From assembly GCA_028821475.1 (NCBI GenBank), contig JAPPGB010000106.1, forward strand, positions 37,946 to 82,572: a stretch of 44,627 nucleotides of DNA. Reading direction: 5' to 3'. Origin of the DNA: Spirochaetaceae bacterium (lineage in GTDB: Bacteria; Spirochaetota; Spirochaetia; SZUA-6; Bin103). Of this stretch, positions 22,772 to 38,094 are shown in pieces. Both the position numbers and the translations under genes were made by a program. Each line of letters opens with the position of its first letter. Position 1 is the first letter of the stretch. The notes below the pieces were generated by a model that was given only the letters and a program-made list of their open reading frames with translations, was not told the origin of the DNA and ran no database searches.

Positions 22772-23794
22772 ATGGCAGAGATTGAAGGAAGTCTTCTCTA
22801 TGACAAGTGCCTGGGGGCGCTGGTCGGCGGCGTGATCGGTGACGCGCTCGGGGCGCCGTCGGAGGGAAAGAGCGCGGACGAGATCGACGCGCAACTCGGC
22901 TGGCTCGACGACTTCGAGTCGGGCGGCACCGACGACACCGTTCTGCGCGACATCCTGGCCCGGACGCTGATCCGCACCTCCGGGTATGCCACCATCGACG
23001 ACTGGGCGGACGACTGGATGGCGGCGTGGGACGATATCTTCGGTCCCAAGCAGCAGAAGTTCTTCCTCTCCGTGCTGCACACGGCGCGCCGGCTGCGCGT
23101 GCAGGGCGCACCGAGAATGGCGGCGCTGGGCAACATCCCCTGCTCCAGCTCCGCCATGTGCATGGCGCCGGCGGGGCTGGTGAACGCCTGCAACCCGGCA
23201 CAGGCGGCGGCGCAGGCCACCCACCTCGCCTCGCTGATCAACGTCCAGGACGCCGGCTTCTGCCAGGACGGGGCGGCCATCGTTGCCGCGGCGGTGGCGG
23301 CCGCCTGCCGCGCGGACGCCAGCGTGGAGTCGATCCTGCAGGAGGCGGTGGCGAACGTCCCCGCCACCAGCGGCGCCCGCATGCTGGCCGGCGTGCAGCA
23401 GGCGCTCGACGCCGCCCGCGACCGCGACTACGCCGCCTTCCGGGCCCACGTGCACGAGCACAAGGAGCGTTTCTTCCAGCCGCGCAAGGCCAACTCCCTG
23501 GAGACCGTGCCGCTGACCCTCGCGCTGTTCTCGCTGTCCGGCGGCGACGTGGAACGCAGCGTGACCTTCGCCGCCAACCTCGGCGGCGACACCGACACCA
23601 TGGCCGCCATGGGCGGCGCGATCGCCGGCGCCTTCGGCGGCGTGGGCGCCATCAGGCCGGACTGGGTCGACAAGGTGAAGCGCAACGCGGACCAGGACCA
23701 GGAGGAGCTCGCCCGCGGCCTGGCGCACGCGGCCGCCGCCAAGATGGAGCGCGAACGCGCCGCCGGCGCTGCCCTGAGCGCCCTGCTGCCATGA
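22772..23794 (+). CDS. ADP-ribosylglycohydrolase family protein
   Basis: A 340-residue ARH/DraG-family protein. The N-terminal LGALVGGVIGDALGAPSEGK, the metal-binding SGGTDDT (about residues 50-56) and the late ANLGGDTDTMAAMGGAIAGA (D-x-D-T) are all intact; these residues bind two Mg2+ in the family. It removes ADP-ribose from protein, DNA or small molecules, or processes a related glycoside. It is a paralogue of the gene at 43460-44503 (shared ATIDDWA, WDDIFG, PRMAALGN, NACNP), suggesting a specialised subfamily. GGAGGAAAC precedes the ATG. It follows the dioxygenase-HEAT gene on the same strand. Confidence 0.9.
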   Translation: MAEIEGSLLYDKCLGALVGGVIGDALGAPSEGKSADEIDAQLGWLDDFESGGTDDTVLRDILARTLIRTSGYATIDDWADDWMAAWDDIFGPKQQKFFLSVLHTARRLRVQGAPRMAALGNIPCSSSAMCMAPAGLVNACNPAQAAAQATHLASLINVQDAGFCQDGAAIVAAAVAAACRADASVESILQEAVANVPATSGARMLAGVQQALDAARDRDYAAFRAHVHEHKERFFQPRKANSLETVPLTLALFSLSGGDVERSVTFAANLGGDTDTMAAMGGAIAGAFGGVGAIRPDWVDKVKRNADQDQEELARGLAHAAAAKMERERAAGAALSALLP

Positions 23795-23904: not shown

Positions 23905-24746
23905 TGCTCGTCGGTCCGCTCCTGTTGCTCGGCACGTTGCCGGTTGCCGCGCAGGTACTTTCTTGTGCGCAGCAAGAGGAAGGTGACGTGTTGGTAGTCA
24001 ATCGCTTTATTTCGTTGCTGCGCGATGGAGACCGGCATCGATTGGCGGACCTGATCCGTTTTCCGTTGCCACGGAGGTACCCGCTTCCAAGCATCTCCCG
24101 AGGCGAGTTCATCGACCGCTACGACGAGGTCTTCGATGACGAGTTTGTGCGGATCATCGCCTCGTCGGGCAACGGTGAGTGTGGCCGGATGGGATGGCGT
24201 GGTCTTCAGTTGCACAATGGACTTGTCTGGTTCTACGACGATGGTACGATCAGACGTGTCAACTACGAGTCGGCAGTCGAAGAGCGCGAGCGCTACCGGT
24301 TGATTGACCTGGAACGACTTGGGTTGCACGAGAGCCTGCGGGACTACCAGTTGCCGATCCTGGAATGGGAGACGTGCAGCTATCGGGTACGGGTAGATCG
24401 CGTCGACGGCGGTTATCGCTACGCGGCATGGAACGTCGCCAGGTTCCACGACAGCGAGCCGGACATGGTCATCGACAAGGGCACCTACAACATGGAGGGC
24501 ACACTCGGAGATCACGGGTACTATTTCTCGAATGGGGAGTACAAGTACATCCTGTTCGTGGATACGACCAGCACCGTCTCGGCGGGCGACCTGGAAGTCT
24601 ACCGGACCCCTCTGAACGGTTACCACGACGTGAGACACGAGTCCAAGGACCATGAGCTGCTGTTGGCCGAACAGATTGTGAACACCGGAACCGAGAGCCG
24701 CAACGAGGCTCTTCTGAATCGACTGCGAGCGTGTACGAGCACCTAG
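23892..24746 (+). CDS. Secreted hypothetical protein
   Basis: A protein of about 284 residues with an N-terminal signal sequence (VVLVGPLLLLGTLPVAAQ, likely cleaved after AQ) and a mature domain rich in aromatic and acidic residues. FISLLRDGDRHRLADLIRFPL and GEFIDRYDEVFDDEFVRII resemble the NTF2-like or DUF4440-type opening of secreted small domains. The second half (RYAAWNVARFHDSEPDMVIDKG, YYFSNGEYKYILFVDTT) is beta-rich. I do not recognise a named family. The start codon is TTG at 23892 or GTG at 23904. GC content is lower than that of neighbours. It lies between the ADP-ribosylglycohydrolase and a PhyH-type dioxygenase. Confidence 0.6.
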   Translation: MRGVVLVGPLLLLGTLPVAAQVLSCAQQEEGDVLVVNRFISLLRDGDRHRLADLIRFPLPRRYPLPSISRGEFIDRYDEVFDDEFVRIIASSGNGECGRMGWRGLQLHNGLVWFYDDGTIRRVNYESAVEERERYRLIDLERLGLHESLRDYQLPILEWETCSYRVRVDRVDGGYRYAAWNVARFHDSEPDMVIDKGTYNMEGTLGDHGYYFSNGEYKYILFVDTTSTVSAGDLEVYRTPLNGYHDVRHESKDHELLLAEQIVNTGTESRNEALLNRLRACTST

Positions 24747-24763
24747 CTAGGAGGGAACCGAAG

Positions 24764-25558
24764 TTGGATCGCCACCCGTTACACTTGACCGACACCGATG
24801 TCGGGTTCTTTGCCGAGCATGGCTACCTGGTCTACCATCACCAGCTCTTCCCTGAACAGAGATTCCGCCGCCTGCAGAGCTTCTTCGACGGCATGCTCGA
24901 GCAGTTGCCGGCGGACGCGCGCCCGGAGGGGATGGACGTCCCGCATTTCGCGTTTCCCGAGCTGTTCGAGTGGCTGGCCGCGGACGAGGTGCTCGATTTC
25001 GTGGAGCGCCTGATCGGACCCAACATCGCCCTGTGGGCGAGCCACTTCCTGTGCAAGCTGCCGAAGCGGGGGCTGGCGGTGCCGTGGCACGAGGACTCCG
25101 CCTACTGGAACGTATCGCTGAGCAAGTACCAGGTGGTCACCGTGTGGCTGGCGATCGACGACTCGCAGCCCGACAACGGCTGCATGCGGGTGATTCCCGG
25201 CACCCACCACGACGGCTTCTCGGAGTACGAGGAGGTGGACCACTCGCAGCACGTGTTCCGCACCCGCATCCGCCCCGACCAGATCGACGAGAGCAAGGCG
25301 GTGGACCTGGCGATCCGCGCGGGCGAGTGTCACGTGCACCACGCCAAGCTGATGCACAGCTCCAGCCCCAACACCAGCGGCCGCCGCCGTTGCGGCTACA
25401 CCATGCGCTACATGACCACCGACGTGAAGTTCAACCCGGAGCGGCAGAAGGGCCGGCACACCGTGTACCTGCTGCGCGGCAAGGACCTGGCCGGCAACGA
25501 CTACGGCGAGCCGGGGCGCGTGTTCGAGCCCGGCAAGCTGCGCTGGATGGGCCGCTGA
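24764..25558 (+). CDS. Phytanoyl-CoA dioxygenase family protein (PhyH)
   Basis: A 264-residue Fe(II)/2-oxoglutarate oxygenase. The iron triad is His109-x-Asp111 (VPWHEDSAYW) and distal His198 in LMHSSSPN; the co-substrate Arg lies in GRRRCGYTMRY. VIPGTHHDG is the usual middle motif. The TTG at 24764 is preferred because AGGAGG sits nine bases upstream (24749-24754); the GTG at 24731 would place that site inside the gene. It hydroxylates a small organic substrate not identifiable here. It is single-domain, unlike the HEAT-fused relative 4 kb upstream. It is immediately followed by a permease remnant, suggesting that it once headed or ended a transport operon. Confidence 0.88.
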   Translation: MDRHPLHLTDTDVGFFAEHGYLVYHHQLFPEQRFRRLQSFFDGMLEQLPADARPEGMDVPHFAFPELFEWLAADEVLDFVERLIGPNIALWASHFLCKLPKRGLAVPWHEDSAYWNVSLSKYQVVTVWLAIDDSQPDNGCMRVIPGTHHDGFSEYEEVDHSQHVFRTRIRPDQIDESKAVDLAIRAGECHVHHAKLMHSSSPNTSGRRRCGYTMRYMTTDVKFNPERQKGRHTVYLLRGKDLAGNDYGEPGRVFEPGKLRWMGR

Positions 25559-25748: not shown

Positions 25749-28685
25749 TCACGACATCTGCCGGCGGACCAGGTCGCGAAACGGTCCGTCGGTGCCCGCA
25801 AGTTCGTCGAACCGGCCGACCTGCACGACCCTCCCGGCTTCGAGCACGTAGATGCGGTGTGCTGCGCGGATCGTCGACATGCGGTGGGCGATGACGACGC
25901 GCGTGGCGGTGGACGTGCGGATTCCCTCCATCACCGCCGCCTGGTTGGTGCGATCCAGCCAGTTGGTGGCCTCGTCGAGAAACACGATGCGCGGGTTGCT
26001 CACCAGCGCGGCGGCGATGCGGATGCGCTGGCTCTGCCCGCCGGACACGACGGCCGCGCGCTCGCCCATGCCCGTATGCATCTGCATCGGCATCGCGGCG
26101 ATGTCCCGGTCCACCGCCGCCAGGCGTGCGGCGCGCCAGGCATCGTCCACGTTCAGGGTCTGGTCCAGCCCGATGATGTTGTCGAGGACCGTGCCGCTGT
26201 GACTGCCGCCATCCTGGAGGACTACCCCGACCTGCCGGCGCACCGAGGCCCGGTCGAGATGAGCAAGGTCGCGATCGTCGTAGTACACGGCGCCGCCGGT
26301 CGGCGTTTCGAGCCCGAGCGCGACGCGGACCAGCGTGCTCTTGCCGGCTCCGGACTCGCCGACGATGGCGACGAACTCGCCCGGCTCGGCGTACCAGGTG
26401 ACGCGATCCAAAACCGGTGGGCCGGCGCCGCCATAGCGAAAGCTGACCGAGTCGAAGCGCAGTCCGCCCCCGAGCTCGACCGGCGCACCCTGCCCGCTTC
26501 CGCCCTCGGGGGTGGCGGCGAGAACGGGCAGAATCTGCTCGCAGGCGGGAACGACCGACGCAACCGCTTCGAACGCGCCGCCGAGCGCGATGATGGCGGC
26601 GTAGAAGATCATCGAACCGACGTATACGACCAGAAATTCGCCGACCCCCAGGGCGCCGTCCGGCCGCGCCGCGGACACCGCGAACAGGGCCGCGGCCGCG
26701 ACCAGGGGCACCGCGGCGCTGAACGCCCTCAGGTGCTCGTCCAGCACGCCGACGCGCATCTCCGCCAGTTTCTGTTCGCGGTAGCGCCGCGCCCATGACG
26801 CGCGCGCCGATTGCTCGGCGCCGGCGGCCTGCAGCTTGCGGATGCAGTCGATGAACTGCGACATGCGGCCGGCGAGCAAGCGTTCCTCGCGAAATCGCCG
26901 GCGCTGGGGCGCGAGCTGCGCCGCCCCGAGGGCGACGGTCACGGCCAGGGCGACGATCCCGATGCCCAGGCTCACCGAGCCGAGCACCGCGTCGTACACG
27001 AGTACGAGACAGATCGACGGCACCAGAAACAGGGCGGACAGCAGCGCGGCCCCCGCCGCTCCGGACAGCCGGTCGCGCACGGTCTGGAACGCCAGGGCCC
27101 GCGTCGACAGCTCGCCCGAACTGTACTGACGGTGAAACCGGATCGGCAGCCGCAACAGGCGATCCCAGAGCGCTGCGCTGGCGCGGGCGGCGAACCGGGC
27201 CTCGATACGCATGACCGCCGTGCCGCGCAGCACGTGCGCCAGCGCCCCGGCCGCCGCGAGCAGCACCAGCAACGCCGCAAGCTGCAGCAGGGCGCGGTGG
27301 TCGCTTGACGGGATGACGCGGTCCACCAGCACGCCGATGCCGGCGGCCGGCGCCAGCGCCAGCACGGCGGCCATGCACGCGGCCGCGACCACGCGGGCGA
27401 GGTCGGCCCCGCACTTGCCGGCGGCGGTCGCCAACAGCGTGCGCAGGCCGACGGGTACGCTATCGGGCAGCCGCGGGTACAGGACGTAGCCGTGGTCTGC
27501 CAGCTCGGAGGCGTCCGACCGCCGGATCGGCGAGGAGCCGCCGGCCCGCGGATCGTACAGCCGATAGCGCCCGGTCGCCCCCGGCAGCAGGGCGACGGGC
27601 GCGCCGCCCTCACGCCGAAAGGCCACGATCGCGCCGCTGTCGCCGCGCCACCATTGCTCCCCCGGGGAGAGGCGCACCCGCCTGGCCCGCACTCCCGACG
27701 CGCGCAGGACGGCGGCGAGCGTCGGCGGCTCCCCGGAGAGCCCGGCCGGCTCCCGGATGGCGATGCGCTCATGACGTCCGACCGCGCGCAGCGCCGCCAT
27801 CAGTGCCGCGCCGCTCGATGCGGCCGGCGCGGCCGGAGCCAGGAGGCGGTACAGCCGTCCGCGCGCCTCGTCCTCGTCGCGGCGGCGCCACGCCGAGCGC
27901 GCGACCTGCAGGTTGGCCTGGTCGACCAGTGCCAACTGCCGGTTGAACAGCTCCGCGGCGAACGCCAGGCGGTGGAACCCCGGCAGGGCGCGGGACAACA
28001 GCGTCTCGCTGCCGAGTGCGTGTGAAGGGCGAACCGCGATCCGGGCCGGTTCATGAAGCGTGGCCCAGCCGCCCGGCGCCAGCGGCACGAGTTCCCCCTC
28101 CCGTGGATCCTCGGTGCCGAACAGCAGCGCCGCTCCGCCCTGCACCCACACTACGCCTGCGGCGCTCGCCACCACGCCGCTGACCCCGCTCCTGACGCCT
28201 TCGGCGAGCAGTACCTCCGGGCGCGGTCGAGGCTCTACCTGGGCGGCGATCGCGGACACGAAACCGCTGATCCAGTGGTCGGCGTGCGCGGCGAGCGCAC
28301 GGCGCATCGTATCGGCGCCGTCGCCCGGGCCGCGGGTGAGGTCGGCGGCGGACATGCGGCGCAGGATGGTGCCCGGCAACCCCTTGGCCACCACCCTCAA
28401 CCCCTCAGTGCCGGCGGCGCCGAACGCCAGCCGGCCCGTCTCCAGCCGCAGCACATGGTGAAACGGCGCCTCCGCCGTGCCGTCGCGGACGCGGACCAGG
28501 AAGACGTCGAGTGCGCCGCGCTCGACCAGCCACACGCGCGCGGGGTCATCGAGCCTCACCGGGCGGTTCGCCGCGCTCACCACGCGCTCACCCCGGACAC
28601 CGGTGATCACGGCGAGACGCCCGGGCCGTTGGTCGGCGGCCCCTGAACCGTGCTCTTCGAGAGTGCCTCCGTGCTCAGGATGCAT
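25749..28685 (-). CDS. NHLP-type bacteriocin export ABC transporter, permease/ATPase subunit
   Basis: A 978-residue ABC protein of the NHLM/NHLP export type that lacks a C39 peptidase. The first about 400 residues are a non-catalytic N-terminal region (RLAVITGVRGERVVSAAN and onward). The exporter membrane domain follows (LARVVAAACMAAVLALAPAAG and onward), then an ATPase with Walker A GESGAGKST (about residue 777), signature VSGGQSQR, Walker B RIVFLDEA and switch AHRMST. In these systems this subunit works with a peptidase-containing partner, which is encoded just upstream and overlaps it by 11 bp. The ATG at 28685 (MHPEHGG) is chosen because of that overlap; the frame itself extends to 28784. 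Last gene of the leftward RiPP operon. Confidence 0.88.
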   Translation of the reverse strand: MHPEHGGTLEEHGSGAADQRPGRLAVITGVRGERVVSAANRPVRLDDPARVWLVERGALDVFLVRVRDGTAEAPFHHVLRLETGRLAFGAAGTEGLRVVAKGLPGTILRRMSAADLTRGPGDGADTMRRALAAHADHWISGFVSAIAAQVEPRPRPEVLLAEGVRSGVSGVVASAAGVVWVQGGAALLFGTEDPREGELVPLAPGGWATLHEPARIAVRPSHALGSETLLSRALPGFHRLAFAAELFNRQLALVDQANLQVARSAWRRRDEDEARGRLYRLLAPAAPAASSGAALMAALRAVGRHERIAIREPAGLSGEPPTLAAVLRASGVRARRVRLSPGEQWWRGDSGAIVAFRREGGAPVALLPGATGRYRLYDPRAGGSSPIRRSDASELADHGYVLYPRLPDSVPVGLRTLLATAAGKCGADLARVVAAACMAAVLALAPAAGIGVLVDRVIPSSDHRALLQLAALLVLLAAAGALAHVLRGTAVMRIEARFAARASAALWDRLLRLPIRFHRQYSSGELSTRALAFQTVRDRLSGAAGAALLSALFLVPSICLVLVYDAVLGSVSLGIGIVALAVTVALGAAQLAPQRRRFREERLLAGRMSQFIDCIRKLQAAGAEQSARASWARRYREQKLAEMRVGVLDEHLRAFSAAVPLVAAAALFAVSAARPDGALGVGEFLVVYVGSMIFYAAIIALGGAFEAVASVVPACEQILPVLAATPEGGSGQGAPVELGGGLRFDSVSFRYGGAGPPVLDRVTWYAEPGEFVAIVGESGAGKSTLVRVALGLETPTGGAVYYDDRDLAHLDRASVRRQVGVVLQDGGSHSGTVLDNIIGLDQTLNVDDAWRAARLAAVDRDIAAMPMQMHTGMGERAAVVSGGQSQRIRIAAALVSNPRIVFLDEATNWLDRTNQAAVMEGIRTSTATRVVIAHRMSTIRAAHRIYVLEAGRVVQVGRFDELAGTDGPFRDLVRRQMS

Positions 28686-30888
28686 GGACGAGTTCCCGGT
28701 AGAGACCGCCCTCGGCGGCGATAAGATCGTCATGGACGCCTTCCTGCACCGCCCGCCCGCCGTCGAGCACGATGATGCGGTCACAGTCGCGGATTGTGCT
28801 CAGGCGGTGGGCGACGATCAGGCACGAGCAGCCGCGGCGGCGCAGTGCGTCGTCGATCCGCATCTCGGTGACCGCGTCGAGCGCCGCCGTGGCCTCGTCG
28901 AGAATCAGCAGCGAGGGGCCGGTGACCAGCGCGCGGGCGATCTCCAGCCGCTGGCGCTGGCCGCCGCTGAAGTTGCGTCCGCGTTCCTCGACCTCGGCGT
29001 CGTAGCCACCGGATCGGGCGATGATCTCGTCATGGATCGCCGCATCGCGGGCCGCGCCGATCACCTGCGGGTCAGGAACGTTCGGGTCCCACAGCGTGAG
29101 ATTGTCGCGCACCGAGCCCGCGATCAGCGCCGTGTCCTGGGTCACGACCGCGATCGAGTCGTTGAGCACCGCGCGCGGGATCTCGGCGCGGCTCATGCCG
29201 TCGAACAGTATCTCACCCGACCAGGGCCGGTAGATCCCCGCCGCCAGCAGCGACAGGGTCGACTTGCCCGATCCGCTGGGTCCGACGATGGCGACGCACT
29301 GGCCGGGCTCGATCGTGAGGTTGAATCGGTCGATCAGCGGTGGCCGATAGCGCTGAAACCCGAACGTAACGTCGCGCATCTCGACCCGGCCGCGCAGCCG
29401 GAGCCGCCCGCCGACGCTCGCGACACCCGGCGCGGCGGGCGGTTCGGCCTCGCTCCCCGCGTCCGGCGGGGCGCTCCGCGCGTCCGGGGCGACGAAGTCC
29501 GCGTTGCGCGGGTCGAGCACCTCCTCCAGCCGTGCCAACTCCGCGTCCAGCGTGCGGACCAGCTCGGCAAACTGCACGAACCGCCCGACCGGCTGCAGGA
29601 AGTTCCAGGCCAGCACGTAGAACGCGATCAAGCTGCCGAGCGGCATCGCCGACGACGACGCGTACCATCCGCCGATCGCCAGCACCGCGGCCCCGCCGAG
29701 TGCGGTAAACAGGACCGGCACCGCCTCGGTGACGTGACCGAGCTCCTCGAATCGCTGGCGGGCGTTCAGCTCGCGCGCCTGGTGTCCGCCCCAGCGGGCG
29801 TAGAAGCCATCCTCGGACGCGGTCGCCCGAATGGTCTCGATGATGCGCAATCCGCCGAGACCGACGCCCGTCCACAGGCCATGCTCGCGGCGCAAGGCAT
29901 GGCTGTCGTCGGTCCGCCAGCGGCTTGCGAGCCGTGCGGCAATCGCGCACGACACCGCGATCAGCACCACCACGGCCGCGAGGGTCGCATCGTACACGAA
30001 CATCAGCGACAGGAACGCCAGGCTCATCGCCAGCTCGACGGTCACGCCCACCGACTGCCGCACGCCGACGGTGACGACCCGCTCGATGGAGTGCATCCGC
30101 GACAGCAGGTCTCCGGCCATGCGGCGCGCGAAGAAGCGCGCCGACCGGCCCAGCAGACGGCCCACGAAGCGATCCGCCTGCCGAACCGCGACCGCGACCG
30201 ACAGCCGCCGCAGCGCCCGCACGCGCAGCCACGTGAGCAGGTAGGCGACCGCGGCGGCGGCGGCCATGGCACCCACCAGGACACCGCTCCAGCCGCTCTG
30301 TGCACCCGCGAGAACGTCGTCGACGAACAGGCCCAGCAGGATCGGTGCCGCCACCCCCGGCGCGGCGAGCAGCAGCCCGGCAAGGATCGCGAACAGGAGC
30401 GACCGCCGGAATCCGCTCACCCAGGGCCACAGTCGGCGCAGTACGCCCGGCGGCCTCCCGGTGCGGTGGAACGACTCGCCCGGCCCCAGTTCCAGGGCCA
30501 CCCCGGTGAACGCGCGGTCGAACCCGTCCCGGTCCACCACGCGCCGGCCGCGGCTCGGATCGTTGAGATGGTAGCCTCGCTTCCCGATCCCCTCCAGCAC
30601 GACGAAGTGCCGGAACTCCCAGAACAGGATGGCCGGCAGCGACAGCCCGGGAAGATCCTCCATGTCCTGCCTCCAGCCGGTCGCCTGCAGCCCATACTGG
30701 CGCGCCGCGCGTACGATGTCGGCGGCTGAGCAGCCGTCGCGGCCCACGTCGCACGCCTCGCGCATCTCCTCGAGCGACACCCAGTGTCCAAAGTGGCGGA
30801 GCACGGCGGCCAGGCACGCGGCGCCGCACTCGGTCGCCTCCATCTGAAACATGAGCGGCGTGCGTGCGCGGCGGGTAAACGTCGGCAT
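28675..30888 (-). CDS. NHLP-type peptidase-containing ABC transporter (C39, PCAT)
   Basis: A 737-residue protein. Residues 1 to about 135 are a C39 cysteine peptidase with Gln15, Cys21 (MEATECGAAC), His94 (FRHFVVLEG) and Asp110 (HLNDPSRG), the complete catalytic set. A six-helix exporter domain follows, then an ATPase with Walker A GPSGSGKST (about 534-542), signature FSGGQRQR and Walker B LLILDEAT. C39 domains remove leader peptides after a Gly-Gly, Gly-Ala or Ala-Gly pair during export. The NHLP precursor at 32824-33096 has such a site. The gene lies 6 bp downstream of the HlyD-like gene and overlaps the second ABC gene, so the export genes form one coupled unit. Confidence 0.95.
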   Translation of the reverse strand: MPTFTRRARTPLMFQMEATECGAACLAAVLRHFGHWVSLEEMREACDVGRDGCSAADIVRAARQYGLQATGWRQDMEDLPGLSLPAILFWEFRHFVVLEGIGKRGYHLNDPSRGRRVVDRDGFDRAFTGVALELGPGESFHRTGRPPGVLRRLWPWVSGFRRSLLFAILAGLLLAAPGVAAPILLGLFVDDVLAGAQSGWSGVLVGAMAAAAAVAYLLTWLRVRALRRLSVAVAVRQADRFVGRLLGRSARFFARRMAGDLLSRMHSIERVVTVGVRQSVGVTVELAMSLAFLSLMFVYDATLAAVVVLIAVSCAIAARLASRWRTDDSHALRREHGLWTGVGLGGLRIIETIRATASEDGFYARWGGHQARELNARQRFEELGHVTEAVPVLFTALGGAAVLAIGGWYASSSAMPLGSLIAFYVLAWNFLQPVGRFVQFAELVRTLDAELARLEEVLDPRNADFVAPDARSAPPDAGSEAEPPAAPGVASVGGRLRLRGRVEMRDVTFGFQRYRPPLIDRFNLTIEPGQCVAIVGPSGSGKSTLSLLAAGIYRPWSGEILFDGMSRAEIPRAVLNDSIAVVTQDTALIAGSVRDNLTLWDPNVPDPQVIGAARDAAIHDEIIARSGGYDAEVEERGRNFSGGQRQRLEIARALVTGPSLLILDEATAALDAVTEMRIDDALRRRGCSCLIVAHRLSTIRDCDRIIVLDGGRAVQEGVHDDLIAAEGGLYRELVHAS

Positions 30889-30894
30889 CGTCCC

Positions 30895-31692
30895 CTACCT
30901 GCGGATCAGGAGACGGAACGGAGACGTGCGTTCGACCACGACCTCGATCCGGCACGGCGTGCCGTCGTCGAGGCGTCGCAGCGCACCGTCCGGGGGCACG
31001 GACCCCGGCGTGTTCGCAATCGCGATCCGGAGGAGATGACCCCGTCCCGGCATGGGGGCGTCCGGAAGCACTCGCGTCAGCCAGCCCGGAGGACTCGCGG
31101 CGCGCGGCGCGATCGTGGTGAGCCTTGCCTGCAGCACGCGGACCCCCTCGGGCGACTCGACCGCCACCCGCGCGCTCATGCCGGCGGCGAGCAGCCACGC
31201 GTCCCTCGGCGGGACGAACGCCACCGCGTCCATCCGGCGGGCGCCTCCATATACGACGTCGGCGACCGGTCCGCCGGCGGGAATCGTCTGGCCGCGTGTC
31301 ACGAGCACGGCGGCTACCACGCCGCTACCGGGACTGACGATGGTCGCTTCTGCCGGCGCCGCCCCGCGTTGGGCAACGGCGATCCGGACAATCACCTCGC
31401 CACGGGCCACCCGCCGTCCCGCCGGCGTCAGAATGTCGGTCACCGCTCCCGCGGCGCCCGACAGGAGCGTGCGCCGGTCGCCGGACAGGACCAGCACGCC
31501 ATCCGCGAGCAGCGTGCGTTCCACGCTGCCGAAGACGCCCCAGGCGACGAGCGCGGCAAGGGCCAGCCCCAGGCACGCAAGCACCACCCATTCGCGAGGC
31601 GCGGTCACCTGAGCGCGGTCGTCCAGCGGCTCCGCCTGTGCATTGCGGACAATGGCGCGCTCTCGAAACTGACTGCCGCCGAGGCCGGTCAC
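30895..31692 (-). CDS. HlyD-like membrane-fusion subunit of NHLP export system
   Basis: A 265-residue protein. It has a cytoplasmic N-terminus of about 34 residues, one membrane helix (VVLACLGLALAALVAWGVFGS), then a periplasmic beta-barrel/lipoyl-type domain: GDRRTLLSGAAGAVTDILTPAG, the hairpin-like VSPGSGVVAAVLVTRGQTIPAG, and the barrel AGMSARVAVESPEGVR. This matches the short HlyD proteins of NHLP bacteriocin secretion. It should connect the ABC exporter to the outside. The gene follows the unknown-family gene by 15 bp and precedes the C39 transporter by 6 bp. Confidence 0.85.
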   Translation of the reverse strand: MTGLGGSQFRERAIVRNAQAEPLDDRAQVTAPREWVVLACLGLALAALVAWGVFGSVERTLLADGVLVLSGDRRTLLSGAAGAVTDILTPAGRRVARGEVIVRIAVAQRGAAPAEATIVSPGSGVVAAVLVTRGQTIPAGGPVADVVYGGARRMDAVAFVPPRDAWLLAAGMSARVAVESPEGVRVLQARLTTIAPRAASPPGWLTRVLPDAPMPGRGHLLRIAIANTPGSVPPDGALRRLDDGTPCRIEVVVERTSPFRLLIRR

Positions 31693-31707
31693 GAGACGCC
31701 TCCCCGA

Positions 31708-32775
31708 TCACGACAGCGGGCGAAGCACGCAGGCGACATAGCCCTTCGCTCCCGCCGCACCGCCACCGGAAGTACCGCCGCGTCCGTCACCCGCGACGGC
31801 CAGCTTGACGTGGTGCAGCCCGCAATGCAGTTCGGAGACGCCGGAGGGTGAGAAGAACCGCTCGCTGCGGGTGGCGAGCCCGAGTGCGTTCGCTCTCTCG
31901 GGCAGGCACCACCGCTTGCGCGCCATCAACGCGAGCGCCTGCCGCCAACTCGCGCCAGTGCGCCCCCGTCGGGACAGTTCGAGGCCGAGCCGCGGCGCAA
32001 CGCGTCCCGCCGCCACGTCGAGGGCGAGCACGCAGTTGTCCACTCCGACGGCGCGCATCCGAGCCGGTATCCTGCCGACGGCCGCGGTATCGCCGGTCCA
32101 ACCGATCCGGGCAAGGAACGCCGCCGCACGGTCACCCAAGGCGCGAATCAGCAGCCGCACGGCGCGCTCCTTGCGATCCGGAAACGCCCCCGCCCAGCGT
32201 ACCGCGGCGCCGGGCGGTAGCGCGGCGAGCACGCGAGCGACCGCGTCCTGTTCACACGGTTCCTCGTTCCAACCCGCGCCCAGGGCGATCGCGGCGGTCA
32301 GCAAGCGCGCGTCGGCGTACCCGCTCGTCACCGCGCTGCGCAAGAAAACGCCCGGCACCGGAGCGTCTTCCACGCCGACGACATCATATTCGAGCGCCAC
32401 AAGGTCCACGACCGCCGCCAACGGCGACCGCGGCCGCCGCAGTTCGGACAGCAAACGCGCGAGCGATGCCGATCCGGGGCCGGCCGCGGCGCGGTCCCGG
32501 ATAAGGGCCGCGGCGAAGCGCCCGGCGGGCGGGACCGACAGCAGCAGATCGGCCGCGGCTGCGCGCCGGTCGAGCCGGCACTCGAACCCGAACATGGCGT
32601 CGGCGGCCGCCGCGGGCAGCTCTCCGGCGCGTACCGCCAACGACTCCCAACCACGACCGTCGACCAGGGCCGCGGGCAGCGTGGAACTCGCCAGGCGCAG
32701 GACGGAGCCGAAACTGCCCGCATCCACGCCCTGTGGCGACTCGCTCCAGGCGGCAGTGAGCCGGGTTCGAGTCAC
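31708..32775 (-). CDS. RiPP-cluster protein of unknown function, paralogue A
   Basis: A soluble protein of about 355 residues homologous to the protein at 33315-34397. Shared segments are VAPRLGLELSR against VAPRVGLELFQ, then a Trp-rich stretch and (R/G)LCLPE/DK, and near the C-terminus GLHHVKLAV against GLHHVKVSF. Both start with a region LPAALVDGRGWESLAVR against VSPVLIDRAGWLCLREAV. No catalytic motif of a known family is evident. The position between precursor and exporter suggests a modification enzyme, a leader-binding partner or an immunity factor. The start is a GTG at 32775 without a strong ribosome binding site, so a few residues may be missing. Confidence 0.75.
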   Translation of the reverse strand: MTRTRLTAAWSESPQGVDAGSFGSVLRLASSTLPAALVDGRGWESLAVRAGELPAAAADAMFGFECRLDRRAAAADLLLSVPPAGRFAAALIRDRAAAGPGSASLARLLSELRRPRSPLAAVVDLVALEYDVVGVEDAPVPGVFLRSAVTSGYADARLLTAAIALGAGWNEEPCEQDAVARVLAALPPGAAVRWAGAFPDRKERAVRLLIRALGDRAAAFLARIGWTGDTAAVGRIPARMRAVGVDNCVLALDVAAGRVAPRLGLELSRRGRTGASWRQALALMARKRWCLPERANALGLATRSERFFSPSGVSELHCGLHHVKLAVAGDGRGGTSGGGAAGAKGYVACVLRPLS

Positions 32776-32823
32776 TTCAGAAACAGGGATCCGGGCACCA
32801 CCCGACGCGTCTCGATAGCGCGA

Positions 32824-33096
32824 TCAGTAGTACCCACTACCGGCGGTGGACGCGAGTTCCTCCTCGGTGAGCTTCTTCGAACGCGGCAGCACCAAGTGAG
32901 CGGTCGTCGCGTCTTCCTCGTGGACGTGGAGCGTCAGGTTCTCCGGCAGGACAATGCCGTAGTCGTCATGGAGGAGTGACCTCGGATCCGCCAGCAACCG
33001 CGAGCGGAACTCGTCGTCATCGGCCGCCTTCGCGAACAGTTGGTCGCGGAGCTCGGTTGCGGTCATCGCGCCGCTGGTCGTTTCGACTGTACTCAT
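32824..33096 (-). CDS. NHLP-type RiPP precursor peptide with apparent four-residue core
   Basis: A 90-residue peptide. AAGGAG six bases upstream sets the ATG at 33096. Residues 12-80 are a nitrile-hydratase-alpha-like leader: LRDQLFAKAADDDEFRSRLL, ADPRSLL, YGIVLPENLTLHVHEED, AHLVLP and KLTEEELAS. The leader ends in an AG pair at residues 85-86, the type of site cut by C39 peptidases. Only Ser87-Gly88-Tyr89-Tyr90 remain before the stop, so the predicted core is SGYY. Most NHLP precursors have longer cores. It is the first gene of the leftward operon, behind a good promoter and followed by paralogue A. It is not a nitrile hydratase subunit: the metal site and beta subunit are absent. Confidence 0.88.
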   Translation of the reverse strand: MSTVETTSGAMTATELRDQLFAKAADDDEFRSRLLADPRSLLHDDYGIVLPENLTLHVHEEDATTAHLVLPRSKKLTEEELASTAGSGYY

Positions 33097-33187
33097 CGAA
33101 ATCTCCTTGCCGTTGTCACGACGTGTTTGATTCCCGGCGATGGGGTCGCACTTGAACCTTCGGACCACGGACAACTGGAGTCATAGT

Positions 33188-33215
33188 ATCATAACACAAC
33201 GTGTGCAAGTGTAAA
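33188..33215 (-). promoter_or_regulatory. Promoter of the RiPP precursor operon
   Basis: On the minus strand TTTACA (complement of 33210-33215) and TATGAT (complement of 33188-33193) are 16 bp apart, a good sigma70-type promoter in otherwise GC-rich DNA. It leaves a leader of about 85 nt before the ATG at 33096. The spacer holds CACA-ACG-TGTG (33195-33205), a small inverted repeat that could be an operator. The rightward half of the cluster starts 100 bp away, so the region may control both directions. Confidence 0.6.
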
Positions 33216-33314
33216 GTTTCGGGGATCATGGGGGATTTTTCGTGATCTTCGCCGCGGACCTCCGGTGGACGGCGGTTGACACGCTGCGCTCTTGAGCGGG
33301 ACGGTGGCGCGGAG

Positions 33315-34397
33315 ATGGTGCTGTCGTCCGAAGATGCCGCTGCCGCGTTCGGCGCGATCCTCGACGCCCTCTCGCGGGTCGTTTCTCCGGTGCTGATCGA
33401 CCGCGCCGGCTGGCTCTGCCTGCGCGAGGCGGTCCGTGGGCTGCCGGTCGACCCGGGCACCGGCTTCGGCTTCGAGTTGCGGCTCGGCGACCGCGCTGCC
33501 GGGACGGACCTCTACGTGGCAGTGCGGCGCGGGAGCCGGCTCGCAGCGCACTACGTGCGGCGGGGGGAGCAGGAGGCGCCCGGTTCGGCCGCGGCAGGAT
33601 TCGGCGATCACCTTGCCGCGATCGACGAGAGCGCGCCGTGGGCCGAAGACATGGGCGTCGAGATCGACGTCACTTCCGGCTCGCCCGGGGGTCCTCCCGG
33701 ACGGTTCGTGCGAATACGATCCGACGCGGCGGACCCCGGCGCTGCCGGATTTCCCGCGGGGCAGACCGTGGGGGAGTGGATCGCGGGCGCCGCCGGCTGG
33801 CGCTTGACCGGCGGGGAGCGTGGAGCGCTGGAGCGGACGTTCGACGCGCTGGCGGCTGGCGGCGGCATGGTCGATTGCGTCGGGATCATGCCGGGGCGCG
33901 TGCGCCGGGCGTTCAAGGTCGTCAGCCGGACCCTGGAACCCGCGTATGCGCTGCCGCTGCTGGAACGGCTGCGATGGAGCGGACCGGCCGGCGAGATCGC
34001 GGCTTTCCTGACCGCGTTCGAGGGATCGTTCCGCACGCTCCGGCTCGCGGTCGGCGTGACCGCGGCCGGCGTCGCGCCGCGCGTCGGACTCGAACTGTTC
34101 CAGGACGAGCCGGGCAGGCTGCATCATGCCGGCGTCGCCGGCTGGCGTCCCTTCCTCGCCCGGCTCTGTGAAGCGGGACTGTGCCTGCCGGACAAGATGG
34201 ACGCGCTGGCTGCCTGGCCCGGGCGGGAACTCGTGTTCCGAGGGCGGGACGCGTTCGGGGTATTCACCGGCCTCCATCACGTCAAGGTTTCGTTCGACGC
34301 GGGCCACCGGGGAGCCGGGGCCGGGGTTGAAGCCAAGGCGTACCCGGCCGCCGGCTATCGCACGTTCGAGACCATCAGGTCGTGGTTCGGCAGGTAG
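33315..34397 (+). CDS. RiPP-cluster protein of unknown function, paralogue B
   Basis: A soluble protein of about 360 residues. It is homologous over its whole length to the protein at 31708-32775; the best-conserved parts are VAPRVGLELFQ, the adjacent GWRPFLARLCEAGLCLP and the C-terminal FTGLHHVKVSF. It differs by ending in VEAKAYPAAGYRTFETI. There is no signal peptide, membrane helix or metal motif that I recognise. It opens the rightward operon, with the P450 genes following. The frame begins at a TTG at 33276, but the ATG at 33315 (MVLSSEDAAAAFG) fits better. Similar proteins recur near NHLP-type clusters as far as I recall, always without assigned function. Confidence 0.75.
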   Translation: MVLSSEDAAAAFGAILDALSRVVSPVLIDRAGWLCLREAVRGLPVDPGTGFGFELRLGDRAAGTDLYVAVRRGSRLAAHYVRRGEQEAPGSAAAGFGDHLAAIDESAPWAEDMGVEIDVTSGSPGGPPGRFVRIRSDAADPGAAGFPAGQTVGEWIAGAAGWRLTGGERGALERTFDALAAGGGMVDCVGIMPGRVRRAFKVVSRTLEPAYALPLLERLRWSGPAGEIAAFLTAFEGSFRTLRLAVGVTAAGVAPRVGLELFQDEPGRLHHAGVAGWRPFLARLCEAGLCLPDKMDALAAWPGRELVFRGRDAFGVFTGLHHVKVSFDAGHRGAGAGVEAKAYPAAGYRTFETIRSWFGR

Positions 34398-34540
34398 CCC
34401 ATGCCGCCGGTCGCACGCGGCGTGGGAAGCGGTGGGAATCGCTGGCGGGCGGCGGTGCCCGGGGAGGCCGGGGTGGACGCGGTTGATGCGCAGCGTTCCC
34501 GGTGCTACGTTGCGCGGCGAACGTTCAGCGGAGGAACGCA

Positions 34541-35839
34541 GTGACGGCACGCGGCGAAACGTGGTTCGAGGAGTTGATCGCGGCCCATGCCACGCGGATG
34601 CGCGATTCGCCGCTGGCCGGCTACTTTGCCGACCCGTTCCGGTTCTTCGCATGGGCCAGGGCAGAGGCGCCGGTGCTGCACCTTCCGGAAGTCGACTGGT
34701 GGGCGGTGGCCCGTTACCACGACATCCGCTCGGTGTTCAGGGATCCGGTAACCTTTTCGTCATCCATTGTCCGCGAGCCCATCACCCCGCTGTGCCCGCG
34801 GGCGACGGAGATCCGCGAGTCGGCCGGCGTGCGGCTGGAGCCCACGCTCGCGGACGAGGAGCCGGCGACGCACCGGCGCCACCGGCGCTTGTTCGGCGAG
34901 GGGCTGTCCGCACGCCGCGTGGCCCGGCTCGAGCCGATGATCCGCGCCATCGTCAACAGCCAGATCGACCGCTTCGTCGATGACGGGCGCGCGGACCTGC
35001 TCGCCGGGCTCCTGCAGCCCGCCGCGAGCCGGATCACGTTCCACCTGCTCGGCGGGGAAGACGACCACTTCGACCTTGCCGACTGGCCCGGCGGGATGCG
35101 CCGCGTTGAAACCTGGGGGACACCGACGGAGGCGGCGCAGGTCTCCCACATGCACATGGTGGCCCGGTTGTGGTCCGTCAGCGGCAGGCTGGTGAGACGT
35201 GCGATCTCGCACCCCGGCGACAGCTACCTCGGCGACGCGGTGCGCGCCCGGCGTGCACAGCCGGCGCTGTTCACGGACAATTATCTCCACAACGTCGCGT
35301 TCCTGCTGCAGACCGCCGGCGCCGACAATCAGAGCCATGCGCTTGCCAACGGCATCAGGACCATGCTCGACGACCGGACGCCCTGGCAACGCCTGTGCGC
35401 CGACCCCGGGCTCATCCCCGGCGCGGTCGAAGAGATCCTGCGCTTCGGCACGCCGCTGCTGGCGTTCCCGCGCCTGGCGACCCGCGACACGGAGGTGGGT
35501 GGGCGGCACCTTCCCGCCGGAGCGAGAATCCTGCTGCTGCTTGCTTCGGGCAATCGCGACGAAACCGTGTTTCCGGACGGCGAACGGCTGGACATCGACC
35601 GCGACAACGCCCGCGATCATCTTTCGTTCGGGCACGGTGCGCACTTCTGCCTCGGAGCGCCGCTGGCCCGGCTGGAGATGAAGATCATCCTGGAGGAGCT
35701 GACCCGCCGCCTGCCCCGCCTGCGGTTGGCGGACGGCGGTGCTCCCGAGGTCTTCCGGACGTTCACGTTCCGCGGGCTGAAGCACCTCACGGTGGAGTGG
35801 ACCCGCAGCTCCGGCGGCAACGGGACCGCTCACCGGTAG
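34541..35839 (+). CDS. Cytochrome P450 (RiPP cluster, first copy)
   Basis: A 432-residue bacterial class I P450. The heme-binding loop is FGHGAHFCLG with Cys370, the ExxR pair is Glu298-Arg301 (VEEILR), and TRDTEVGGRHLPAGARILL follows as usual. In the I helix, the oxygen-activation motif reads AGADNQS: the acid (Asp262) is present, but the usual Thr is Asn263. The start is a GTG at 34541, preceded by GGAGGA at good spacing. Three base pairs separate its stop from the second P450. In RiPP systems such as biarylitides and cittilins P450s cross-link Tyr side chains, so this enzyme may act on the precursor's Tyr-Tyr. No ferredoxin gene is nearby. Confidence 0.93.
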   Translation: MTARGETWFEELIAAHATRMRDSPLAGYFADPFRFFAWARAEAPVLHLPEVDWWAVARYHDIRSVFRDPVTFSSSIVREPITPLCPRATEIRESAGVRLEPTLADEEPATHRRHRRLFGEGLSARRVARLEPMIRAIVNSQIDRFVDDGRADLLAGLLQPAASRITFHLLGGEDDHFDLADWPGGMRRVETWGTPTEAAQVSHMHMVARLWSVSGRLVRRAISHPGDSYLGDAVRARRAQPALFTDNYLHNVAFLLQTAGADNQSHALANGIRTMLDDRTPWQRLCADPGLIPGAVEEILRFGTPLLAFPRLATRDTEVGGRHLPAGARILLLLASGNRDETVFPDGERLDIDRDNARDHLSFGHGAHFCLGAPLARLEMKIILEELTRRLPRLRLADGGAPEVFRTFTFRGLKHLTVEWTRSSGGNGTAHR

Positions 35840-35842
35840 CGG

Positions 35843-37114
35843 ATGTCGGAGCACGGAACGACGCGGTTCGAGCAGATGGTCGCCGGTCATGCCGGGTACC
35901 TGCGCGGATCGCCGCTGGCCGGCTACCTTGCCGACCCCTACCGATTCTTCGCGTGGGCGAGGGCCGAGGCGCCGGTACTGCACGTAGCGGAAGTCGACTG
36001 GTGGGCGGTTGCCCGTTACCGCGACATCCGTGCGGTGTTCACCGACCCGGCAACCTTCTCGTCCGCCAACGTGCGCGGTCCCATGACCACGGCGTCGCTG
36101 TGCCCGCAGGCGAGGGAGACGTGCGAATCGGCGGGAGTGCGGCTGGAGCCCGCGCTGGTCGACGAGGATCCGCCGACGCACCGCGGCCACCGGCGTTTCT
36201 TCGGCGAGGGCCTGTCCGCGCGCCGCGTGGCCCCGCTGGAGCCGGCGATCCGCGCGCTCGTGACCCGCGAGATCGACCGTTTCGCCGGTGACGGGCGCGC
36301 GGACCTGCTCGCCGGGCTTCTGCAGCCGGCCGCAAACAGGGTGATGCTGCGCCTGCTCGGCGGCGGCGACGACGACTACGACCCGGCCGACTTCCCGGGC
36401 GGACTGCGCCGCCTCGAAACCTGGGGGGCGTGGACCGAGGCCGCGCAGGTTGCACTGATGAACTCGGTGGTCCGGTTGTGGTCGTTGAGCGGCAGGCTGG
36501 CGCGGAGGGCAATCGAGCGTCCCGGCGACAACTACCTCGGCCATGCGGTCCGCGCCCGGCGCGCGGACCCTTCCCTGTTCACGGACAACTACCTCCACAA
36601 CGTCGCGTTCCTGCTGCAGAGTTCCGCCGCGGACAACCTGAGCCACGCGCTGGCCAACGGCATCCGTGCGCTGCTCGACGAGCGGCCGGCGTGGGAACGG
36701 TTGTGCGCCGACCCGGGGCTGATCCCCAACGCCGTCGAGGAGATCCTGCGTCTCGGCGCTTCCGCCCTGGTGTCTCCGCGTCTCGTGACCCGCGACGCCG
36801 AGATTGCCGGACGGCACATCCCCGCCGGAGCGAGGGTCATGCTGCTGCGCGCCTCCGGCAACCGCGACGAGACCGTGTTCCCGCGCGGCGAACGACTGGA
36901 CATCGACCGCGGCAATGTCCGCGACCATCTCTCGTTCGGGCACGGCCCGCACTTCTGCCTCGGGGCGCCGCTCTCCCGGATCGCCATGAAGGTGGTCCTG
37001 GAGGAGCTGACCGGGCGCCTGCCGCACCTGCAGTTGGCGGACGGCGGCGTACCGGATGTCGTCCGCGCGTTCACGTTCCGCGGACTGAGGCGCCTCGCCG
37101 TCGAATGGGGTTGA
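35843..37114 (+). CDS. Cytochrome P450 (RiPP cluster, second copy)
   Basis: A 423-residue paralogue of the preceding P450, arisen by tandem duplication: long segments are nearly identical (SPLAGYLADPYRFFAWARAE, DNYLHNVAFLLQ, FGHGPHFCLGAPL). The heme ligand is Cys372. The I-helix motif is SAADNLS with Asp264 and Asn265, again without the usual Thr, so this feature predates the duplication. Differences gather around residues 85-100 and near the end of the I helix, where substrate is contacted, suggesting two successive oxidations of one substrate. Its ATG begins three bases after the stop of the first copy, and its stop overlaps the next gene. Confidence 0.93.
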   Translation: MSEHGTTRFEQMVAGHAGYLRGSPLAGYLADPYRFFAWARAEAPVLHVAEVDWWAVARYRDIRAVFTDPATFSSANVRGPMTTASLCPQARETCESAGVRLEPALVDEDPPTHRGHRRFFGEGLSARRVAPLEPAIRALVTREIDRFAGDGRADLLAGLLQPAANRVMLRLLGGGDDDYDPADFPGGLRRLETWGAWTEAAQVALMNSVVRLWSLSGRLARRAIERPGDNYLGHAVRARRADPSLFTDNYLHNVAFLLQSSAADNLSHALANGIRALLDERPAWERLCADPGLIPNAVEEILRLGASALVSPRLVTRDAEIAGRHIPAGARVMLLRASGNRDETVFPRGERLDIDRGNVRDHLSFGHGPHFCLGAPLSRIAMKVVLEELTGRLPHLQLADGGVPDVVRAFTFRGLRRLAVEWG

Positions 37115-38094
37115 ACGTGCGCCGCCGCGACGCGGGGGATCCGTACAAGGGCGCGGGAGAGCCCGTGGCGGCGGGGCCGCGTGAGGCGATTGCCCGCGGT
37201 CTGCGCTTCCTGGAGAACGCGGTGGATGCGAACGGCGGCTGGCCGGTGCGGCGGTGCGGGAACCGCACGCTGACTGGTCCGGGGTCCGCCGAGCATCCGC
37301 CGTTCGTCGCGGGACTTGGACTGCTGGCGCTCCGGGGCTGTGACCACCCGGTAGCCGAACGGCTGCGGCGGCGTACCCGGACGTTCCTGCACGCCTGCAT
37401 CGGATACCCCGGCGTGTGGCGTTACTGGCCCCGGCTCCCGCCCGACCTCGACGACACCGCGATCTGTTCGCTGGCGGCCGGACCCCACCTCTGGCTCCTG
37501 CTGGCACGCAACGTTGCGCTCCTGCTGTCGTTCCGCGACCGCGCGGGCCGGTTCCGAACCTGGATGGCCGGGCCGCAGCGGGTAAGCCACGCCCTGAATC
37601 CGGTCGACTCCGTGGTAAATGCCAACGTCGTGGCGTATCTCGGCGACCGCCCGGAGACCCGCGCTGCGCAGCATTGGCTGAAGACGCTGGTCGTGGACGG
37701 CAGCCAACAGGACCTCTCGCTGCACTACTACCCCGCCGCCATCGATCTGTACGTGGCGCTGGCCCGTGCGCGCAGCCTTGCTCCGCCGGTGTTCGCGGGG
37801 CTGCGGCCGGTGCTGGCAACCCGGATCCTGTCCTGCCGGCGGCCGGACCGAGGGTTCGGGGACACCATGCGCACGGCGCAGGCGCTGACGGCGTTGCACC
37901 GCCTGTGCGCCGATGCTCAGGTGGAGGTGGTGCGCACGGCGATCGGCCAGCTCCTGGACGCGCAGCGCGCCGACGGCGGCTGGCCGGAGTGCCTCGCCTG
38001 GCTCGGTCAGCCCGGTACGGAACTCGGATTCGGTTCCGAAGCCTTCACCACGGCGTGCTGCGTGGAAGCCTTGGCGTGCGTCGCGTCGGCATGA
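37105..38094 (+). CDS. Small alpha/alpha-barrel protein with class II terpene-cyclase-like DxDDTA motif
   Basis: A 329-residue protein resembling the prenyltransferase/squalene-oxidase repeat fold. Repeat-type segments are GLRFLENAVDANGGWPV near the start and QLLDAQRADGGWPECL near the end, with HYYPAAIDLYVALARA between. D114-L-D-D-T-A119 (PPDLDDTAIC) matches the DxDD(T/S)A acid motif of class II terpene cyclases, followed by VDSVVNANVVAYLGDRPETR. At 329 residues it is one barrel, about half of a squalene-hopene cyclase. It may modify a peptide or lipid in the cluster; a protonation chemistry is only suggested by the motif. Its ATG overlaps the end of the second P450 gene by 10 bp, so it is coupled to it and belongs to the cluster. 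Confidence 0.8.
   Translation: MGLNVRRRDAGDPYKGAGEPVAAGPREAIARGLRFLENAVDANGGWPVRRCGNRTLTGPGSAEHPPFVAGLGLLALRGCDHPVAERLRRRTRTFLHACIGYPGVWRYWPRLPPDLDDTAICSLAAGPHLWLLLARNVALLLSFRDRAGRFRTWMAGPQRVSHALNPVDSVVNANVVAYLGDRPETRAAQHWLKTLVVDGSQQDLSLHYYPAAIDLYVALARARSLAPPVFAGLRPVLATRILSCRRPDRGFGDTMRTAQALTALHRLCADAQVEVVRTAIGQLLDAQRADGGWPECLAWLGQPGTELGFGSEAFTTACCVEALACVASA

Follow-up and report, generated by a model that had tools for sequence, protein, structure and literature searches.

What does a bacterium make from a peptide precursor that ends almost where its leader ends? The question is raised by a cluster of nine genes in a 44,627-nucleotide stretch of contig JAPPGB010000106.1 of a Spirochaetaceae bacterium (GenBank assembly GCA_028821475.1), which we call the window. 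An earlier note on this DNA had described a precursor with an NHLP leader, an exporter with a C39 peptidase, a second ATP-binding cassette (ABC) exporter, an HlyD protein, two cytochromes P450, a barrel protein and two unknown proteins (here A and B), and all were found where the note had placed them. The balance of the evidence favors a cluster for the biosynthesis and export of an isoprenoid-modified, ribosomally synthesized and post-translationally modified peptide (RiPP), i.e., a peptide-terpene hybrid.

Proteins A and B very probably have the fold of ABBA prenyltransferases

The genes for the two unknown proteins, which belong to a family with a GLHHVK motif, lie at 31708..32775 on the minus strand (A) and 33315..34397 on the plus strand (B, for which a longer frame starts at 33276). 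They were said to be related, and are indeed 31% identical (E = 3e-25). Neither has a family in Pfam or NCBIfam, and for 10 members of their family no prenyltransferase family was matched there even at E = 10; the family is thus filed under no named subfamily. Searching PDB sequences with phmmer and hmmsearch also produced nothing credible. Five β-strand pairs with helices between them can be read from the family sequence, which suggests the barrel of the ABBA prenyltransferases.

A single-sequence AlphaFold model of B had a predicted local distance difference test (pLDDT) score of 39, and was discarded. A model (AF2) of a relative, L051, calculated from four family members, reached a pLDDT of 74 and a predicted template-modeling score of 0.77. 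When it was compared with the PDB using Foldseek, all 25 of the 25 matches below 1e-3 were ABBA aromatic prenyltransferases. VIA-align gave a best Z of 17.4 to the indole prenyltransferase MpnD (298 residues aligned, 4.4 Å), followed by 16.2 for CymD with L-Trp and 15.6 for PriB with L-Trp, with about 300 residues aligned; the tool gives Z of 7 to 8 as the usual range where a model has no clear match. We are therefore highly confident, on the strength of the modeled relative, that A and B adopt the ABBA prenyltransferase fold. The fold is shared with MpnD, CymD, PriB and IptA over nearly the whole length (Z of 15-17), although the identity is about 10% and no Pfam or NCBIfam family is held in common. 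Those four enzymes act on free tryptophan or small molecules.

Twelve positions are identical in 16 of 16 family members, including E67, D78, D131, R208, H335, K337, K354 and Y356 (numbered in the 373-residue frame of B), and all 12 are retained by A, aligned with the modeled relative, and by B. In a tree of the family A and B form no supported pair, so that an old duplication or a separate arrival appears more likely than a recent copying of one gene.

Prenyltransferase-like domains also occur in fusions elsewhere. Three low-GC spirochetes (loci L042, L043 and L044 of genomes G386, G035 and G078) have one fused to a C-terminal Cys-rich, SPASM-like domain, adjoining an outer-membrane efflux gene. 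In the LanM-Nif11 cluster of Pseudanabaena galeata (L047:11983-13776) such a domain is fused to a 2-oxoglutarate-Fe(II) oxygenase (WP_281009877.1, annotated only as an oxygenase).

The precursor has a probable core of three residues

The precursor gene (32824-33096, minus strand) encodes 90 amino acids from an ATG with GGAG upstream; a longer frame beginning with TTG and extending to 33174 is an unlikely start. The NHLP leader that the earlier note had recognized scores 60.9 bits with TIGR03793 (7.6e-17), above the curated cut-off of 50.9, and no other NHLP gene was found in the 5.7-Mb assembly. The C terminus is ..EEELASTAGSGYY, ending ..ELASTAGSGYY, and there is almost no core after the leader (..STAGS|GYY). 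Alignment with 11 relatives places AGS in the window precursor where these have VAGG or AGG at the cleavage site. Cutting there leaves the probable core Gly-Tyr-Tyr.

How does this core compare with those of related precursors? We counted 50 cores, each from a genome or record that has the prenyltransferase family, with tandem copies and sister genomes included, so that these are not independent events. Tryptophan is the last residue in 41 of the 50 and is present in 48; among the 46 distinct cores, 37 end in Trp. The window thus departs from most of its relatives in the comparison of precursor C termini that the earlier note had put forward. The Trp end holds across groups, and even in a Nif11 precursor of Pseudanabaena (..PPIKW). 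The cores that end otherwise comprise five in the genome G003 (Trp near the end), one each in Nitrospirales and Azospirillum, LCCC in the genome G454, GYY in the window, and those of Nostoc UHCC 0926. Tryptophan and tyrosine are known acceptors of ABBA enzymes, and thus the gene family and its proposed substrate fit each other.

Since both GYY and LCCC precede a TGA codon, we also considered recoding of TGA as Trp. This was rejected, because a terminal Trp codon would have a stop at once after it, and no stop directly follows the TGA.

The barrel protein is related to class II terpene cyclases

The last gene of the plus arm (37105..38094) encodes a barrel protein of one domain, in a family of about 310-330 residues. 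Its profile finds the repeats of squalene-hopene cyclase in the PDB (7.7e-9) and, over the C-terminal two-thirds, AstC (2.8e-6; profile positions 98-321) and a bacterial drimenol synthase (6.6e-6; 106-319). The matches to curated cyclase families lie below their cut-offs, with 18.6 bits against 26.1 for SQHop_cyclase_C (E = 0.001) and 13.7 against 431.1 for hopene_cyclase. Judged by these profile matches, the barrel is a homolog of the class II terpene cyclases.

The window protein has the full class II motif, as DLDDTA. In the family this is DLD[D/S], and the relatives carry DLDDTA, DLDSTS, DLDSTA, DLDSTG or DLDSLS; both Asp residues of DLD are kept throughout, and the fourth position is variable. 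The deposited AstC chain reads DLNTTS where the DLD motif aligns, and so variation at position four is not disabling in principle. AstC and drimenol synthase have a homologous barrel with a DxD-type motif, fused to a HAD phosphatase, and they act on farnesyl diphosphate. The window barrel, in contrast, stands alone beside the putative peptide prenyltransferases.

In two genomes of different phyla the barrel is fused to an NHLP leader. One fusion is a 435-residue frame in a gammaproteobacterium (L050:9647-10954) and the other is in a Nitrospirales genome (G453:C8, L116:1042-2778). The two have a similar Pro-rich linker (..AEREEAKT..DPAPP.RPP..) and no core. These natural fusions support a direct contact between leader and cyclase.

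A partner protein of 575-598 residues in the Azospirillum and Pseudanabaena clusters was considered as a second barrel. The hhalign probability to the window barrel was 20% and there was no match to PDB sequences, so we do not claim homology. In Nostoc sp. C052 a 1218-residue protein annotated as TPR (L123:7078-10734) contains a barrel related to that of the window (25.8%, DLDDT), away from annotated RiPP genes.

Prenyltransferase, barrel and NHLP precursor recur together

We scanned 84,980 genomes for the barrel; the diversity of the A/B family alignments (A1 and A4) ruled out a pattern scan of all genomes with them. Six loci were found, in Nitrospirales, Gammaproteobacteria, Spirochaetia and three alphaproteobacterial records. 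The prenyltransferase family and NHLP precursors are present in five out of five barrel host genomes, as well as in the genome of the window, so that precursor, prenyltransferase and barrel are linked across four major groups (Spirochaetia, Alphaproteobacteria, Gammaproteobacteria and Nitrospirales). Prenyltransferase and barrel are separate genes in the window and in all relatives seen, and are immediate neighbors at L033 and L073. In the Alphaproteobacteria both lie in one cluster with an NHLM exporter and 10 or more precursors in tandem. Scans of viral contigs gave no matches.

In a sample of 393 genomes of the phylum, NHLP is present in two and the prenyltransferase family in six, and both NHLP genomes are among the six (hypergeometric probability 1.9e-4). 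The genome G003, from the same family as that of the window, has four prenyltransferase copies, each beside an NHLP precursor; its precursors number 11 intact and one broken. The latter (L039:9290-9715) appears broken: its matches to the leader are split between two frames, and its tail is long. A plasmid of Azospirillum B510 (L048:4005-16431) carries eight NHLP precursors, of which most have a long hydrophobic core and seven end in Trp, together with a prenyltransferase-like gene, a 575-residue protein of unassigned family in common with Pseudanabaena, and genes that we take to be YcaO- and TfuA-like from our own reading of the sequence. On cyanobacterial plasmids, relatives of the prenyltransferase accompany LanM or radical SAM enzymes and Nif11 precursors.

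The earlier note had proposed that the genes of the cluster act jointly. For the precursor, the A/B family and the barrel this is upheld by their recurrence (in five genomes besides that of the window) and by the leader-barrel fusions. It does not extend to the P450s: the barrel does co-occur with NHLP precursors in related clusters, while P450s of this kind were seen only in the window.

The P450 pair, the exporter and the arrangement of the cluster

The two P450s are encoded in tandem at 34541..35839 (a; PF00067 6.2e-20, with EEILR and FGHGAHFCLG motifs) and 35843..37114 (b; PF00067 8.4e-16, nearest solved chain 6ldl at 1.8e-75), both on the plus strand, and are 72% identical. Comparison of the related loci turned up no similar P450s, and thus the pair looks like a local tailoring addition outside the conserved unit. 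Their possible reactions are oxidation of the terpene or of tyrosine, or cross-linking of the two Tyr residues.

The transport genes are all on the minus strand. An HlyD-type adaptor (30895..31692) matches HlyD_3 at 4.3e-8 and scores 79.1 bits with TIGR03794 against a cut-off of 156.2. It is followed by an NHLM ABC1-like exporter with a C39 leader peptidase (28675..30888; Peptidase_C39 1.4e-32, TIGR03796 848.1 bits against 853.3) and an NHLM ABC2-like permease/ATPase (25749..28784, for which the start may be 28610), whose best NCBIfam match is TIGR03797 (676.7 bits against 709.4). The NHLM families are the best matches yet score below the equivalog cut-offs, so we regard the three genes as divergent.

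The minus arm runs outward from the control region as precursor, A, HlyD, C39 ABC exporter and second ABC exporter, and the plus arm as B, P450 a, P450 b and barrel. Neighboring genes overlap or nearly abut in both arms, and about 218 bp separate the precursor ATG from B, both much as the note had described. Within this divergent control region (33097..33314) there is a promoter-like site, TTTACA-16-TATGAT with a TG before it (33215-33188, minus strand), which reads toward the precursor. By consensus match alone it agrees at 10 of 12 positions, with an extended −10; one such site was found, and 0.0 were expected in shuffled sequences. The cluster is accessory, since two congeneric genomes have neither the A/B family nor NHLP genes.

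Twenty proteins of the window were scanned, and in agreement with the note no LanM, YcaO, radical SAM or LanB/C enzyme was found; nor was a Trp halogenase family. We also weighed a tailoring role for the PhyH gene at 24731-25558 but left it out of the cluster, given its tail-to-tail orientation with the exporter and the abundance of PhyH-like genes in G003. Elsewhere, the window encodes a 626-residue protein (2125-4005) that contains DUF6851 and weakly matches the helical-bundle domain of vanadium chloroperoxidase (VCPO_2nd), as well as two genes of the ADP-ribosylglycohydrolase family (22772-23794 and 43460-44503).

A proposed pathway and its alternatives

From the computed leader, family fold, cyclase homology and gene linkage we infer the acceptor residue, donor length, cyclization, order of steps and product. 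The leader would dock the precursor on A and B, which would place an isoprenyl chain on the C-terminal aromatic residue or residues, Trp in most relatives and Tyr-Tyr in the window. The barrel would then protonate and cyclize the chain while it is bound to the peptide, with an Asp of the DLDD motif as the acid. One or both P450s may oxidize the product, on the terpene or on tyrosine. The C39 domain would cut after the double-glycine-like AGS site, and the ABC pair with HlyD would export a molecule of very small size that is probably Gly-Tyr-Tyr in modified form. We consider peptide prenylation by A and B to be likely, cyclization by the barrel somewhat more probable than its opposite, and oxidation by the P450s an even chance. 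The complete scheme, in which Gly-Tyr-Tyr on an 87-residue folded leader becomes an oxidized polycyclic Tyr-meroterpenoid through two prenyltransferases, a stand-alone cyclase and two P450s with Tyr as acceptor, is offered tentatively, as less likely than not.

Several observations count against such a pathway, and the chief doubts are the inferred chemistry, the core without Trp and the altered motif of many barrels. The enzyme activities and the product of the cluster are predictions, and the modeled protein is a relative (L051) that is 36-37% identical to the window copies. The window core contains no Trp at all, nor does the LCCC core of the G454 precursor, and the precursors adjoining the Nostoc relative of the prenyltransferase have cores that end in residues other than Trp. 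At position 260, B carries Gly in place of the Asp of 14 of the 16 family members. The invariant residues of the family are acidic as well as basic, so that diphosphate may be bound differently from the DMATS enzymes. Finally, most relatives of the barrel carry DLDS rather than DLDD.

The last point bears on a different role for the barrel. Prenylation could be real while the barrel is no terpene cyclase but a toroid with another activity or none, which binds the leader or the prenylated core and aids presentation or export, and the leader fusions in two genomes would suit such a binding role, as would scores below the Pfam and NCBIfam cyclase cut-offs and the prevalence of DLDS. The window copy, however, has the intact DLDDTA, AstC is itself altered at the aligned place, and in NctPC, as described in PMC13290415, the same two activities are joined. 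We judge a role of this kind unlikely, though it deserves more weight than the two alternatives that follow.

Could the P450s instead carry out the main chemistry, with prenylation secondary or absent? Oxidation or cross-linking of the Tyr-Tyr core would resemble the biarylitide, cittilin or mycocyclosin pathways. The adjacent tyrosines of GYY and the tandem P450s invite the comparison, and the matches below threshold include TIGR04538, a P450 that goes with cyclodipeptide synthases. The related clusters examined nevertheless conserve prenyltransferase and barrel, no P450 was found in them, and none of the nearest solved P450s is named as a cross-linking enzyme, so that we consider this improbable. 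To a similar degree we doubt that the cluster is a decaying relic whose precursor has lost its Trp core and which makes nothing. A single precursor with a three-residue core, where relatives have several and up to 13, would fit decay, as would the loss of a conserved Asp from B and the two congeneric genomes without the cluster. Yet the nine genes are all open and tightly packed, the precursor keeps its leader, start signal and promoter-like site, both prenyltransferases keep the 12 invariant positions, and the P450 pair is an addition rather than a loss. We retain prenylation, probably followed by cyclization, as the preferred reading.

Comparison with known systems

The proposal that the cluster represents a new class of RiPP pathway was too strong, because two comparable systems have been described. 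In NctPC an ABBA prenyltransferase and an MstE-like cyclase form one protein, which attaches a geranylgeranyl chain to a Trp of a RiPP and cyclizes it (PMC13290415, citing Hubrich et al. 2024). In that description, as in the scheme proposed for the window, a ribosomal peptide has one of its aromatic residues modified by an ABBA prenyltransferase together with a class II terpene cyclase of a single domain. The window differs in its separate genes, duplicated prenyltransferase, NHLP leader, GYY core without Trp, and two P450s. MppC of Moorena producens carries out leader-dependent ABBA prenylation of Trp in a Nif11 lanthipeptide, and does not accept Tyr in place of Trp82 (PMC12715784). In this system an ABBA enzyme acts on Trp in a precursor with a long structured leader, and the Pseudanabaena relative belongs to a LanM-Nif11 cluster of this very type, whose precursor has KW as its last two residues. 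In the window, however, no LanM was found among the 20 proteins scanned, and the description of mpp reports neither a terpene cyclase nor a P450 (PMC12715784). Given NctPC and MppC, the chemistry is not of a new class. What sets the window apart is the separate and duplicated prenyltransferase genes, the NHLP leader, the three-residue core ending in Tyr, and the P450 pair.

The srp proteusins of sponges offer a further comparison. The core of SrpE is LCCCW, and its terminal Trp is brominated by SrpI (PMC10858898). Like the window they have an NHLP precursor with a short core, which in srp is modified at the C-terminal Trp, and the genomes G453 and G454 carry LCCCW and LCCC beside a prenyltransferase. 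The window differs in its GYY core and in the lack of YcaO and halogenase among the proteins scanned. The srp-like LCCCW and LCCC cores at L074:2-2556 and L076:8783-10301 adjoin an ABBA-type prenyltransferase, with a YcaO-like protein in L076 and a Rieske oxygenase-like protein in L074. This proximity points to possible prenylation of srp-type proteusins as well. PalQ, which prenylates a C-terminal Trp (PMC10853753), was considered as a precedent and rejected; its fold is of the isoprenoid-synthase type, and hence it is not a relative.

Implications

For an unannotated protein family, the analysis provides a likely function and a link with the RiPP precursors of Spirochaetia, Alphaproteobacteria (Azospirillum among them), Gammaproteobacteria, Nitrospirales and cyanobacteria. 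A candidate acceptor residue, open to testing, is given by the Trp that recurs at the C terminus and is replaced by Tyr in the window, and the natural fusions of leader and cyclase point to a way in which the two could come together. If the proposal is correct, the window would contain a genetically encoded route to a terpene-peptide of small-molecule size, with Tyr replacing Trp as the acceptor, and few known ribosomal precursors of a product of this kind would be as small as its three-residue core. Terpene-modified peptides would then have a wider distribution than the handful of cases described to date suggests.

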